The translations under genes and the position numbers were made by a program. 32,893 bases of DNA, taken from NCBI RefSeq assembly GCF_001968985.1, contig NZ_MOEN01000017.1:1-32893 (forward strand), read 5' to 3'. Shown here in pieces: positions 15,315 to 21,161 of the stretch (within the stretch, counting starts at the first letter, position 1; the number at the start of each line of letters is the position of its first letter). The stretch comes from Desulfurobacterium indicum. GTDB taxonomy: Bacteria > Aquificota > Aquificia > Desulfurobacteriales > Desulfurobacteriaceae. The notes under the pieces are model-generated. The model worked only from the letters and a program-made list of their open reading frames with translations. It was not told the DNA's origin and searched no databases.

Positions 15315-16529
15315 TCATTTTCTCTCCTCATACTCAATCTTTACATCCGGCTTTGGCGCCGGAAGTCTTTCTGCAGGCCTTGAAATTTCAAACCTCCCCT
15401 CTTTTATCCACTCCTTCAGAATGTTTGCTATCTCCCTTGCTTTGTAGTAGGAAGAGAGAGGACAGGTTTGAATCTTTTTGCCGTTTATCTCTATCTGTCC
15501 CTTCCTCAAGTCACCGTAATTAACATAAGCTATCGGATTAACCGCTTCACCGCTTGGATAATCGGAGGAGTAGTCATAAACAGGTGCTAGTATTTCGGAA
15601 TCTTTAACGGAAGTGTAAAAAGCTATTCTCTCATTAAGTATAGGTATGGGAATCCCGATCCCGACAAAGAGAGAAACACCATAGCCAATAATTGAAGCAG
15701 CCCTTATGAAATTGGTGCTCATCTGCTTCATGTCGCCGACAGTCATTATGGTACCGCTTCCCTCAACGGGCTGTCCTTTCTTTGTTCTCCTTACACCGAA
15801 TGGTGCATGCTGAGTTCCATGAAACGCAATATATCCAATGCCACCGCCCAGGAATATCCGCGTCCCGATACCTATTGTTTCAAAAAACGGATCATTGAGA
15901 AGCGGGCTCAACTGTCCGGCACTTGAGTATGTGGCATTTCCCATGTTTGGACGAAGTATTCCCATATAAGTATAAATCGTTCTGGAAGATTTATTAACTG
16001 CAACGTTATAGTTCTGATAGCAGTTCCTTGGATTGCACAAAATAGCGTCTCGCACGGTTTTTATGTTAATAATTTTTTTGATTTCTCTCCTTGGATAACA
16101 ATCTGTGCCGTAAGCATAGGCTTCAAGCTCTATATCCTCACCTGCTATCAATTCTTCGATAACGTGTGCACCACCGTACTCAAACCTACCAGGATAAACC
16201 TCGTTTCGAGGATCATTTTCAGGAAGGGCACTTGCTCCAATATAAAGATCAACAGCAGCAAGGGCACCATAGGCAGGAACACCATTAAGGTAGATCTCTT
16301 CCATCTTCATTTTAGGCCTTGTATGACCTACATTTAAAAAGGCACCGGATGAACACATCGCACCAAATGTTCCTGTAGTAACGACATCCACTTCTTCGGC
16401 TGCCTTTACAACGCCCATTTCTTCAACAATTTCAATCATCTCTTCGGCGGTTACAACAACCGCTTCGCCCTGCCTTATTTTTTCGTTTATCTCTTCATAG
16501 GTTTTATTAACCTTAAACTGTTCTTCCAT
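15315..16529 (-). CDS. DUF39 homocysteine synthase (sulfide plus aspartate semialdehyde)
   Basis: DUF39 proteins of methanogens and sulfur-metabolising bacteria are required to make homocysteine directly from aspartate semialdehyde and sulfide, bypassing O-acylhomoserine. The 404-residue product fits the family: TTGTFGAMCSSGAFLNVGH (about 51-69, with C59), YGTDCYPRREI (C144) and the FHGTQHAPFGVRRT stretch. No fused CBS domains are present. I start it at ATG 16529, ten bases behind GGAGAAG and 13 bases after the rimO stop; a longer frame from 16583 would overlap rimO and lacks a site. It is the last gene of the dapA operon, which also uses aspartate semialdehyde. Confidence 0.85.
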   Translation of the reverse strand: MEEQFKVNKTYEEINEKIRQGEAVVVTAEEMIEIVEEMGVVKAAEEVDVVTTGTFGAMCSSGAFLNVGHTRPKMKMEEIYLNGVPAYGALAAVDLYIGASALPENDPRNEVYPGRFEYGGAHVIEELIAGEDIELEAYAYGTDCYPRREIKKIINIKTVRDAILCNPRNCYQNYNVAVNKSSRTIYTYMGILRPNMGNATYSSAGQLSPLLNDPFFETIGIGTRIFLGGGIGYIAFHGTQHAPFGVRRTKKGQPVEGSGTIMTVGDMKQMSTNFIRAASIIGYGVSLFVGIGIPIPILNERIAFYTSVKDSEILAPVYDYSSDYPSGEAVNPIAYVNYGDLRKGQIEINGKKIQTCPLSSYYKAREIANILKEWIKEGRFEISRPAERLPAPKPDVKIEYEERK

Positions 16530-16542
16530 GTTTCTTCTCCAT

Positions 16543-17838
16543 TTACTCAATCGGTTCGGCGATAAGGTCAACATTACTGGCAAGTGCGGTTATTTTTGCA
16601 TCTACAAACGTTCCAGGGGGATAATTACCCTTTAAGTAAACTATTCCGTCCACTTCGTACGCATTTCTATAGCCTCTTGCCTCAACATAACCTTCCATAT
16701 CGTCAGCCGGACCGTCAACGATAAGTCTCATCTCTTTCCCGATAAATTTTCTGTTATTCTCTTCAAAAATAGAATACTGAACTTCTTCTAAAAGGTTGAG
16801 CCTTGAATCTTTAACATCTTCTGGGAGATCTCCCATATTATAGGCAGCTGTTCCCTCTTCACTTGAATATTTGAAAAAACCAACCCAATCAAGTTTTTTC
16901 TCTTTCAAAAATTCAACAAGCTTTTCAAAATCCTCTTCCGTCTCAGAAGGAAAGCCTACAATAAACGTGCTCCTCAATGCAACATCGGGAATCCTTGTTC
17001 TTATCTTATCTATAAGTTCATCTATATATTTGCGAAAATATTTTCTTCCCATTGAAAGCAAAACCTTATCCGTAACATGCTGAAACGGAACATCAAGATA
17101 GTGAAGAACTTTTTTGCTATCAGCAATATAATCTATCAACTCATCGGTAATGTGAGATGGATAGGTGTACATAAGTCTTATCCACTCAATTCCTTCAACC
17201 GTTTCAAGCTTTTTCAAAAGCTTCAGCAAACCGTTTTTCTCCTTCTTATCCATACCGTAGGCAGTTGTATCCTGAGCTATAATGTAAAGTTCTTTAACGC
17301 CTTTCTCGGCAAGAAACCTTGCCTCTTCAATAATCTCTTCCTCTGGACGACTCCTGTAAGGCCCCCTTATAAGGGGAATAGCGCAGTAGGTACAGTTGTT
17401 TGAACATCCTTCAGCAATCTTAAGATAGGCTATATGGGAAGGCGTAAGAATATGCCTGTAAAGAAATGGTTTTTCAGGTTGAAACTGTCTATCAAGTATC
17501 TTATCAACACTCCTCTCAAGTTCGTCAACACCTATAAAAACATCTACTTCTGGAAGCTCTTTTTTAAGTTCATCTCTGTATCTCTGATAGAGACATCCCG
17601 CAACAACAACCTTTTTCTCAGGATCTCTTTTCTTCTCTTCTATGGCCGTTAGTATCTCGTCTATGGATTCTTCCTTGGCAGGTGTTATAAATCCGCAGGT
17701 ATTAACGATAATGATGTCCGCATCCTCAAGGTTATCAACAAAAAGCACATCTCCTGTAGCCTTTAAAAGACCTACTATATGCTCGGTATCAACCAGATTT
17801 TTGGGACATCCAAGACTTATAACGGCAACCTTTTTCAT
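16543..17838 (-). CDS. rimO: Ribosomal protein S12 methylthiotransferase
   Basis: RimO is a radical-SAM enzyme that adds a methylthio group to a conserved aspartate of ribosomal protein S12. The 431-residue product has the N-terminal UPF0004 domain opening SLGCPKNLVDTE, with cluster cysteines C11, C48 and C82, the radical-SAM motif CSNNCTYC (C145, C149, C152) and a C-terminal TRAM-like segment. The CPKNLVD form separates RimO from MiaB, which modifies tRNA. The ATG overlaps the hisA stop by four bases. Confidence 0.95.
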   Translation of the reverse strand: MKKVAVISLGCPKNLVDTEHIVGLLKATGDVLFVDNLEDADIIIVNTCGFITPAKEESIDEILTAIEEKKRDPEKKVVVAGCLYQRYRDELKKELPEVDVFIGVDELERSVDKILDRQFQPEKPFLYRHILTPSHIAYLKIAEGCSNNCTYCAIPLIRGPYRSRPEEEIIEEARFLAEKGVKELYIIAQDTTAYGMDKKEKNGLLKLLKKLETVEGIEWIRLMYTYPSHITDELIDYIADSKKVLHYLDVPFQHVTDKVLLSMGRKYFRKYIDELIDKIRTRIPDVALRSTFIVGFPSETEEDFEKLVEFLKEKKLDWVGFFKYSSEEGTAAYNMGDLPEDVKDSRLNLLEEVQYSIFEENNRKFIGKEMRLIVDGPADDMEGYVEARGYRNAYEVDGIVYLKGNYPPGTFVDAKITALASNVDLIAEPIE

Positions 17839-18563
17839 AAATCACCTTTCAGCTTTTTTATAACCGATTCAAAATCTATCGCACCCTCGTAAAGTGCCTT
17901 TCCCGTAATAGCACCAACCACATTCGGAATTCTGGAAAGACGAATAACATCATCTTCCGTAGCAATACCGCCGGAAGCTATAACAGGCTTCCTAACACTC
18001 TTTGCAAAGTTAGAAACTTCTTCAAAGTTTGGTCCCTCAAGAGTTCCGTCTCTTGAAATATCGGTGTAAACAAATCCCCAGATAGAGAGACTCTCGTACC
18101 TTTTAGCAAAATCAACCGCTTTTAGATCCGTTTTCTCCACCCATCCCCTCGTTGTCATAAAACCGTCTTTGGCATCAACGCCTAAAACCACGCCGCCCGG
18201 AAAAGATTCAACCATCTCAAGGAAAAGTTCTGGATTTTCAACAGCAACAGTTCCAAGGATAATTCTGTCAATACCTATATCTTTTAAAGCCTTTACGGCA
18301 TCTATGGTTCTGACTCCTCCACCAAATTGAACAGGAATGGAAAGCCTTTTAATAATTTCTTCAACTATCCTGATATTTGCCGGAACACCGTTAAAAGCTC
18401 CGTCAAGATCAACAACATGAAGCCTTGTTGCACCTTTGTCCTGCCACAACATTGCCGCATCAACAGGATTGTCAAAGTATTCCTTTATCGCATCGGCCCT
18501 TCCCTTGTAGAGCCTTACACACTTACCACCTTTTATGTCAACTGCAGGAATAAGTTCAAACAT
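17835..18563 (-). CDS. hisA: ProFAR isomerase
   Basis: HisA (1-(5-phosphoribosyl)-5-[(5-phosphoribosylamino)methylideneamino]imidazole-4-carboxamide isomerase) catalyses the Amadori rearrangement in histidine synthesis. The 242-residue beta-alpha barrel has the catalytic aspartate pair D9 (PAVDIKGGKCVRLYKG) and D130 (VDAKDG) and phosphate-binding GGGVR and SGGI segments. HisA rather than HisF is indicated by VDIKGG and VRLYKG. It is separated from the other his genes; only hisZ, on the divergent side, is in the window. It starts ten bases after dapB. Confidence 0.96.
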   Translation of the reverse strand: MFELIPAVDIKGGKCVRLYKGRADAIKEYFDNPVDAAMLWQDKGATRLHVVDLDGAFNGVPANIRIVEEIIKRLSIPVQFGGGVRTIDAVKALKDIGIDRIILGTVAVENPELFLEMVESFPGGVVLGVDAKDGFMTTRGWVEKTDLKAVDFAKRYESLSIWGFVYTDISRDGTLEGPNFEEVSNFAKSVRKPVIASGGIATEDDVIRLSRIPNVVGAITGKALYEGAIDFESVIKKLKGDL

Positions 18564-18573
18564 CTATCCTCCC

Positions 18574-19356
18574 TTAAATACCAAGAATATCGAACATAGT
18601 GTAAAGACCTGCTGGTCTTCCATAAATCCACTTTGCAGCTTCAACAGCACCTTTAGCAAAAGTCTCTCTGCTTGTGGCTCTGTGGGTTAGCTCTATCCTC
18701 TCACCGGGAGCGGCAAAAAAGACCGTATGGTCTCCAACCACATCTCCCATCCTGGCTGCAAGGATACCTATCTCTTCAGGTTTCCTCTCTCCGACAAAAC
18801 CTTTCCTACCGTAAACAGCAACGTCTTCAAGCCTTCTACCAATTGCCTCTGCTATAACTTCAGCGAGTCTCATAGCGGTTCCAGAAGGTGCATCCTTTTT
18901 AAATCTGTGATGGATTTCAAAAATCTCTATGTCATAACCTTTATTCTTCAACGCTTTTGCAACTTCACCGACGAATTTAAAGAGTATGTTCACCCCGAGG
19001 CTCATATTCGGTGAAAAGACTATCGGAATATCTCGGGCTGCTTTCTTTATCTCTTCAATTTCTTCGGGTTTAAATCCGGTCGTCCCTATAACAAGTGCAA
19101 CATTATTCTTTTTGGCTTCTTTTAACAATTCAAGAGTAGCAGACGGAACAGTAAAATCTATTACCACATCAGGTTTATTGGAAATTTCGGAAAGTGATGA
19201 AACAAACACAAGTTTATCATCAAAAGATTTCCCTATAAGTGGGGAACCCGGTTTCTCAAGAACTCCAGCAAGTTCCATGTTATCTTCAGCCTTAATAAGA
19301 GAAGAAATCAGCCTTCCCATTCTTCCGTTGGCACCGTTAACCGCCACTTTTACCAT
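18574..19356 (-). CDS. dapB: 4-hydroxy-tetrahydrodipicolinate reductase
   Basis: DapB makes tetrahydrodipicolinate in the diaminopimelate/lysine route, the step after DapA. The 260-residue product begins with the Rossmann motif VNGANGRMGR and has the catalytic/substrate motif EIHHRFKKDAPSGTA, with the C-terminal GDHTVFFAAPGERIEL stretch typical of the family. I place the start at ATG 19356-19354, four bases behind GAGGTG; the preceding in-frame TTG at 19359 is less well spaced. The start overlaps the globin-PsiE stop by one base, so the two are translationally coupled. Confidence 0.96.
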   Translation of the reverse strand: MVKVAVNGANGRMGRLISSLIKAEDNMELAGVLEKPGSPLIGKSFDDKLVFVSSLSEISNKPDVVIDFTVPSATLELLKEAKKNNVALVIGTTGFKPEEIEEIKKAARDIPIVFSPNMSLGVNILFKFVGEVAKALKNKGYDIEIFEIHHRFKKDAPSGTAMRLAEVIAEAIGRRLEDVAVYGRKGFVGERKPEEIGILAARMGDVVGDHTVFFAAPGERIELTHRATSRETFAKGAVEAAKWIYGRPAGLYTMFDILGI

Positions 19357-20288
19357 CAATCACCTCTCTTATACTCAAACCATTTAACAATACCGTAAAC
19401 AATACCAAGAATAAGAATCAACGCACCTATACCAAGTTTAAACGAAACAGGTTTCGTATGTTCAAGGGAAAGAACAAGTGCTTCACGAATAGTAGCTGCA
19501 AGGGCAACACTAACAAATGCACTGACTGCAAGTTCTCCACCCATCATGAATTTTATCTCACTGTTTAGGAGTTCTAAAACAGTCCAAAGAATAAGTAGAT
19601 CACCAAGGGCAGATATGAGACCGTGAGAAAGATCTCCGTGGAAGAAATGGATAACATCCATAACAAAGAGACCTGCTACCACAATGCCAAGAACCATTAA
19701 ACCCAGAATAATTGCAACATCCATAACAAAGGCAAACTTTTTGGTGAACCTTATAACAAACTTCTCGGCAGGATCAGCTTCAATAAATGTTCTCATTTCA
19801 TGATCTATGTAGAAAGAAAGCATAACAGAAAGATGAAGGTCAAGAAGTTTTGAGAGGGAACGGGTATATTCCTCTATAAGAGTGCACCCTTCTCCTTTCT
19901 GTTCAACAAGCACTTTAACAATTCTCTTAGTGCAAAAACGCCTCACAAAGTTCATCATAGCAACGATAAGATTTGTAGGGATTCCGAGGTCAGCATGAAC
20001 CTTGGCAATTCTCAGTATGTAAGTGAGATACTCTGAATCGTACTTACCCGAAAAGAGTTGCTCATACCAGTGAATAACTTCATCCTTTATCTTTTTAAAA
20101 TCATCTTCCGAAATGTATTTTGAAGCCTCATCATACTTCAAAAGCTGGTTGAAAAAAGCTTCTGCAAATTCATCCTTAAAAGAGATAAGCATATGACCAA
20201 TTTCTTTAAGGTTATCGACATCCTTTTTCCGAAGCTCAAACTGATAGAGGAGACGCTCCATATCTGAATAACTTATCTGAACACCCAT
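19356..20288 (-). CDS. Protoglobin-like sensor fused to a PsiE-type four-helix membrane domain
   Basis: The 310-residue protein has a soluble N-terminal domain (about 1-165) resembling the globin of globin-coupled sensors: an all-helical run with ILRIAKVHADLGIPTNLIV at 91-109, in which H98 matches the proximal haem ligand (usual form I-x-x-V-H-x-R-I-G-L-P). The C-terminal part (about 185-305) has four hydrophobic segments and resembles the PsiE (phosphate-starvation-inducible) family. Such a protein would sense O2, NO or redox at the membrane, with an unknown output. It sits between dapA (zero-base gap) and dapB (one-base overlap), in an otherwise metabolic operon. Both domain calls are by eye. 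Confidence 0.7.
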   Translation of the reverse strand: MGVQISYSDMERLLYQFELRKKDVDNLKEIGHMLISFKDEFAEAFFNQLLKYDEASKYISEDDFKKIKDEVIHWYEQLFSGKYDSEYLTYILRIAKVHADLGIPTNLIVAMMNFVRRFCTKRIVKVLVEQKGEGCTLIEEYTRSLSKLLDLHLSVMLSFYIDHEMRTFIEADPAEKFVIRFTKKFAFVMDVAIILGLMVLGIVVAGLFVMDVIHFFHGDLSHGLISALGDLLILWTVLELLNSEIKFMMGGELAVSAFVSVALAATIREALVLSLEHTKPVSFKLGIGALILILGIVYGIVKWFEYKRGD

Positions 20289-21161
20289 TTAGAGCACCCC
20301 CTTCTCTTTTAAGACTTTTCTTATAATCTCTTCTTTCTCCGGCGTTGTCAGACAGAGAGGTAATCTGAACTCCTTCTCCATTCTTCCCATCATTGAAAGA
20401 GCCGTTTTAACAGGAATAGGATTGGTATCAACAAACATCGTTTTGTGAAGAGGATAAAGCTCTAAATGGAGCTTCCTTGCCTCATCAATATTGCCTTTTA
20501 CAAAGGCTCTATACATTTTTACCATTCTATCTGGGACAATGTTTGCCGTAACAGAAATTACACCTTTTCCACCAACGGCAAGCAACGGATAAAACGTAAG
20601 ATCATCACCTGATAGAACCTCTATTTTATCACCACAAAGGTTAACAATTTCGGTTGCGACATTCGTACTTCCTGTAGCCTCTTTAATTGCAACAACGTTT
20701 TCTATAACTGACAACCTTGCAACCGTTTCCGGTAGCATGTTAACCCCAGTTCTACCAGGAACGTTGTATAGAACAATTGGGATATCCACGGCTTCAGCAA
20801 TTGCCTTAAAATGACGATAAAGACCTTCCTGATTAGGCTTATTGTAGTAAGGTGTAATAAGGAGTGCTCCATCAGCACCCGCTTCTTTTGCGTAAGCTGT
20901 AAGCTCTATCGCTTCCTTGGTAGAGTTAGAACCTGTACCAGCTATAACTTTGGCTCTTCCTTTTACCTGATCAATGGTAATAGCTATAACCTCTTCATGC
21001 TCTTCATAGGAAAGAGTGGCGGATTCCCCTGTCGTTCCACAGGGAACGATACCGTTCACACCGCTTTCTATAAGAAACTCTATATGCTCCCTCAACGCCT
21101 TTTCATCAACCTTTCCATCTTTAAAAGGTGTAGGTATGGCAACATATATTCCTTCAAACAT
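20289..21161 (-). CDS. dapA: 4-hydroxy-tetrahydrodipicolinate synthase
   Basis: DapA condenses aspartate semialdehyde and pyruvate, the committed step of lysine and diaminopimelate synthesis. The 290-residue barrel has GTTGES at 42-47, the catalytic tyrosine in LYNVPGRTG (Y132, R137) and the Schiff-base lysine K160 in AIKEATG. GAGGCGG precedes the ATG. It is the first gene of a six-gene minus-strand operon (dapA, globin-PsiE, dapB, hisA, rimO, DUF39). The 100-base leader is too short for a lysine riboswitch and shows only an AT-rich TATATAA box on this strand. Confidence 0.97.
   Translation of the reverse strand: MFEGIYVAIPTPFKDGKVDEKALREHIEFLIESGVNGIVPCGTTGESATLSYEEHEEVIAITIDQVKGRAKVIAGTGSNSTKEAIELTAYAKEAGADGALLITPYYNKPNQEGLYRHFKAIAEAVDIPIVLYNVPGRTGVNMLPETVARLSVIENVVAIKEATGSTNVATEIVNLCGDKIEVLSGDDLTFYPLLAVGGKGVISVTANIVPDRMVKMYRAFVKGNIDEARKLHLELYPLHKTMFVDTNPIPVKTALSMMGRMEKEFRLPLCLTTPEKEEIIRKVLKEKGVL

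Follow-up and report, generated by a model that had tools for sequence, protein, structure and literature searches.

A globin joined to a PsiE membrane domain

The genome of Desulfurobacterium indicum carries, between dapA and dapB, a gene for a sensor-type globin fused to a PsiE membrane domain. This raises the questions of what such a protein would sense, what it would act on and whether its neighbours bear on its function. We analysed a stretch of 32,893 nucleotides (contig NZ_MOEN01000017.1, positions 1 to 32,893; assembly GCF_001968985.1), hereafter the window.

The fusion gene occupies positions 19356..20288 of the minus strand and encodes 310 aa from an ATG start. The dapA gene (20289..21161, minus strand; PF00701, E=2e-104) lies directly upstream with a 0-base gap, its last base adjoining the ATG of the fusion. 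On the other side is dapB (18574..19356 from its ATG, minus strand; PF05173/PF01113). Read directly from the sequence, the TGA of the fusion (19358-19356) and the dapB ATG (19356-19354) have one base in common, TGATG. The ORF prediction started dapB at a TTG at 19359, just upstream of this ATG. A preliminary description of the locus had reported this packing together with a globin-PsiE fusion and a candidate proximal histidine. The sequence confirms the packing, the Pfam matches and the GsGCS alignment presented below confirm the fusion and the histidine, and the description proved right in every detail of 19356-20288 that could be checked.

The profile search found one Protoglobin and one PsiE domain only in the window genome, both in this gene. 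In same-genus species pairs, the dN/dS was about 0.05-0.09 for the globin and PsiE domains alike. These values indicate that globin-PsiE is a living gene and rule out a pseudogene. From 15315 to 21161 on the minus strand, dapA, the fusion gene, dapB, hisA, rimO and a homocysteine-biosynthesis (HcyBio) gene stand head to tail, almost gapless, and they are probably a single operon of mixed housekeeping genes.

The globin domain and its haem pocket

The architecture of the protein follows directly from Pfam. Protoglobin (PF11563) matched residues 8-165 (19794..20267, minus strand) with a score of 71.9 bits (cut-off 25, E=7.9e-20), and PsiE (PF06146) matched residues 193-303 (19380..19712, minus strand) with 63.7 bits (cut-off 23.9, E=2.4e-17). 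NCBIfam gave no match for the window protein. The nearest solved sequences in a PDB sequence search were GsGCS (2w31, the closest, E=1e-13), an anti-anti-sigma-factor globin protein (7o0i) and AfGcHK. The full-length AlphaFold model is of moderate confidence only (mean pLDDT 76.9, pTM 0.50). Its globin part was compared with the PDB by Foldseek and matched AfGcHK (TM 0.90), GsGCS (TM 0.89) and then HemAT, with a range of 0.84-0.90. Profile search and structure prediction thus both agreed with the preliminary description, with matches to the two profiles and a globin fold as in known sensor globins.

Three pocket positions, all encoded on the minus strand, were compared with 2w31. H98 (19995..19997) pairs with His93 (F8), V71 (20076..20078) with His66 (E11) and F46 (20151..20153) with Tyr40 (B10). 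The numbering of 2w31 was obtained by counting along the alignment, and its His66(E11) matches the assignment in PMC4476040. H98 also pairs with the proximal His of AfGcHK, and both pairings lie in ungapped stretches, so that by alignment H98 is a sound candidate for the proximal histidine. Because V71 occupies E11, the window protein has no bis-histidyl coordination through this position. The protein has several features of the globin-coupled sensors (GCSs), namely an N-terminal Protoglobin-type domain, HisF8 and, in PsiE, a putative C-terminal output domain in the same chain. The absence of HisF8, a trait of the RsbR type, is not found here. The distal TyrB10, which is usual in O2-sensing GCSs but not strictly defining, is replaced by F46, whereas 44 of the 54 homologues have Tyr in this column. 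In EcGReg of E. coli, the distal Tyr43 (TyrB10) stabilises bound O2 (PMC5549716).

The PsiE membrane domain

Hydropathy places four membrane segments at residues ~187-212, 222-241, 253-271 and 284-302, and the helices of the models agree. The linker has five Lys/Arg residues ahead of TM1 and the C-terminal tail has three; taken with the hydropathy, this suggests that both termini are cytoplasmic. The core of the domain (D190, G229, E239, F258, A262-A265, I267 and R268) is invariant in 57 sequences. A profile alignment to E. coli PsiE (E=8e-5) placed Glu, Lys and Arg at the corresponding core positions. The Glu aligns with the acidic E239 (19572..19574, minus strand) and the Arg with the basic R268 (19485..19487, minus strand), which lies inside TM3 in the motif FVxxALAAxIR. 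The polar core of PsiE is therefore conserved.

A model of the PsiE domain (mean pLDDT 83) had no significant fold relative in the PDB or in BFVD (viral folds), and a literature search, made largely without subscription papers, found nothing relevant on globin together with PsiE. With no solved fold match and no globin-PsiE paper found, the earlier statement that this output has no known mechanism stands. A PsiE is also expressed from the heat-resistance locus of E. coli (PMC7010813).

Distribution and descent of the fusion

By protein search, 97 of 136 Aquificota genomes had matches. Both domains were present in about 74, a figure counted by hand from the spans of two-domain matches, and these belong to four of the five families. 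Pfam profiles found PsiE in all 57 aligned members and Protoglobin in 54. The tree of the 54 fusions splits cleanly by family, as vertical inheritance would predict. Judged from these sequences, the fusion is old, ancestral in Aquificota and vertically inherited. No fusion spanning both domains was found in plasmids and phages.

The two domains have diverged at different rates, with an identity between the window genus and other Desulfurobacteriaceae of 80% in PsiE and 47% in the globin. They are also separable. In several Aquificaceae (g14), PsiE-only proteins of 142-144 aa occupy the site of the full fusion of G046, flanked on both sides by the same genes (L070 vs. L075-L077). Either the globin half was lost in these bacteria or it was never gained there. 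Since PsiE persists without the globin and evolves more slowly, we suggest PsiE as the working part and the globin as a tunable, losable regulator.

Two further observations concern the globins of the phylum. In other Desulfurobacteriaceae genera (L020-L033, L078-L081), about 30 extra residues, often with a CDP motif, lie between globin helices G and H; the insert falls between window residues 130 and 137 and is absent from the window genus. In addition, several Aquificaceae have separate open frames of 830-900 aa with a globin-like N-terminus (G016:C183, G006:C72, G009:C1:299437 and others), which are perhaps other globin-coupled sensors.

Apparent repeated erosion of the sensor pocket

The preliminary description had made the conservation of H98 among orthologues one of its conditions. 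The column held His in 48 of 54 homologues, and to that extent the expectation was borne out. It failed in family f5, where all six members examined (L042-L047) have Phe in an ungapped stretch. The f5 genomes have ferrochelatase despite Phe at F8, so an absence of haem synthesis is not supported as the cause of the loss. In the AhbD profile search, no genome at all reached the curated cut-off. Given that f5 retains the fusion without HisF8, the globin can be useful or tolerated without standard haem ligation.

The window genus differs in another way. Three of its species have the gene, and all three keep H98, but B10 is Phe in the window protein and Ser and Leu in the other two. Oxygen had been named among the possible signals, and these replacements weaken that suggestion for the window genus. 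Moreover, H106/Y107, which are common in the family, are N/L in this genus. From these substitutions, the gas-sensing pocket may be eroding in the window genus, and the losses of TyrB10 and H106/Y107 may reflect fading rather than retuned sensing.

One species of the same genus (G126) has no gene between dapA and dapB, and the short spacer that separates them (L084 2278-2334) still holds a 3' remnant of the fusion. In a comparison with G124 over 52 bases, the dapB start among them, the identity is 86.5%, and the remnant translates as KYKRGE as against FEYKRGD in the window. A remnant in this position indicates that the fusion gene was deleted from the operon. Protoglobin and PsiE were found nowhere else in G126, a single assembly that is 85% complete, and this result rests on one contig.

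A proposed mechanism and its closest rivals

The explanation that we favour, with moderate confidence, is that the window protein is a membrane-tethered globin-coupled sensor that acts in cis on a PsiE membrane effector. In this organism, its ligand specificity would be altered or its haem sensing would be fading. The N-terminal sensor globin would lie in the cytoplasm and bind haem through H98, presumably as a dimer. The H helix and the long helical linker (helix 173-217 in the model) would relay the state of the globin in cis to the four-helix PsiE effector and so control it. As for the ligand, NO, CO or redox state would be likelier than stable O2 binding, the loss of TyrB10 and the Val at E11 making O2 the less likely candidate. 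The position in the dap operon would be incidental and provide steady co-expression with housekeeping genes. Ferrochelatase in the genome counts in favour of a sensor, since tetrapyrrole metallation is thereby available. Points against it are the loss of TyrB10 and of H106/Y107 in the window genus, the absence of the gene from G126, the loss of HisF8 in f5 and the moderate confidence of the model.

Several of these points would equally fit a globin that, in the window genus, has turned or is turning into a regulatory domain with little or no haem, like that of B. subtilis RsbR. It would then respond to another cue, or serve as a dimerisation or stability module for PsiE. We regard this as possible, although clearly less probable than a haem-based sensor. 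It would account for the replacements at B10 and at H106/Y107, for the Phe at F8 in six of six f5 members whose genomes still have ferrochelatase and for the deletion in G126, and it agrees with a sub-threshold Rsbr_N match in some other family members. However, H98 is kept in all three window-genus species with the gene, the globin is under purifying selection as strong as the dN/dS given above, and the Protoglobin scores remain high.

The globin could instead be a membrane-anchored enzyme for the detoxification of NO or of O2/ROS, with PsiE mainly as an anchor or electron-transfer partner. The Desulfurobacteriaceae are known for anaerobic growth, which counts for this explanation. So do two reports that protoglobins react in vitro with NO and O2 as well as with reactive nitrogen species (PMC4020757, PMC3680402). 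On the other hand, PsiE is more conserved than the globin and persists alone, the opposite of what a passive anchor would do, and no partner gene recurs beside the fusion in its various contexts. We therefore consider an enzyme improbable.

Gene order and the lysine and phosphate pathways

The preliminary description had also proposed to follow the conservation of the dapA-globin-dapB order. Eighteen Desulfurobacteriaceae genomes carry the gene with both sides assembled, and every one of them has this order, which is kept throughout the family but nowhere else examined. G119 and G130 gave no globin-PsiE match, but both assemblies are incomplete and the dapB match is missing too. In G115 (L099 3659-5537), two genes are inserted between dapA and globin-PsiE; judged by eye, one encodes a DNA methyltransferase with a TSPPYW motif and the other its partner of 206 aa. 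The 18 conserved loci would favour a protein that acts jointly with dapA and dapB to regulate the supply of lysine/diaminopimelate or of the cell wall. In contrast, the f3, f4 and f5 fusions adjoin unrelated housekeeping genes, for example secA-, pyrH-, folE- and cysS-like genes as identified by sequence inspection rather than by profile search, G126 has dapA-dapB without the fusion, and the inserted genes separate dapA from the globin in G115. The order is limited to Desulfurobacteriaceae and is therefore a family-level trait that offers no evidence of a lysine function. The unrelated neighbours outside this family and the G126 locus lead us to reject a functional tie to dapA/dapB, and we hold regulation of lysine supply to be very unlikely.

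Slighter still is the chance that globin-PsiE connects the gas or redox state with phosphate starvation, an idea raised in the preliminary description and encouraged by the domain name. It is also encouraged by an older study that described E. coli psiE as controlled by PhoB and CRP (Kim et al. 2000, as cited in PMC4415409). It is weakened by a conflicting PhoB mapping, which found neither PhoB binding nor PhoB-dependent regulation at E. coli psiE and places it outside the Pho regulon (PMC10294691), and by the recurrent neighbours inspected, among which no phosphate gene was recognised.

Implications and comparison with known systems

PsiE is a widespread membrane family, and its fusion to a sensor of known chemistry could offer a gas switch with which PsiE might be probed. 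The natural variants without the haem ligand, without the sensor or without the gene also aid the question of what PsiE does. The fusion would, in addition, bring a membrane effector to the outputs described for globin-coupled sensors. As a broader and doubtful proposal, the globin-PsiE proteins of Aquificota might form a class of their own among globin sensors with a membrane output, ancestral to the phylum. PsiE would then be a four-helix pore or transporter gated by the ligand state of the haem. Haem sensing would have disappeared on at least one occasion (f5), and the sensor or the gene would have been discarded elsewhere. If this were true, the phylum would hold a natural range of PsiE forms, from those gated by gas to those without gating.

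Full-length GsGCS likewise ends in a membrane domain without an assigned function, and a membrane-output GCS is therefore not a new kind. GsGCS is like the window protein in being the closest solved sequence, a near-best fold match and a bearer of HisF8 at the same position. It differs in having His at E11 and Tyr at B10, where the window protein has Val and Phe, and its haem is bis-histidyl with the E11 His (PMC4476040). AfGcHK (PDB 5ohe/5ohf), the best globin fold match, has the same proximal His; unlike the window protein, its aligned B10 is Tyr and its output is a histidine kinase. HemAT, EcGReg/DosC and BpeGReg likewise combine an N-terminal sensor-globin fold with a C-terminal output in cis, but HemAT and the globin-coupled diguanylate cyclases have soluble signalling outputs, whereas the output here is a four-TM PsiE. 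E. coli PsiE has the same domain (PF06146) with the common Glu/Lys/Arg positions, but it is only 136 aa long and has no sensor globin. Finally, the N-terminal globin of B. subtilis RsbR has lost HisF8 and haem and is still a regulator (PMC4476040). The f5 proteins may likewise have lost HisF8 and haem yet stayed regulatory, whereas the window protein retains H98 and is joined to PsiE rather than to the STAS-domain output with which RsbR acts in the stressosome.
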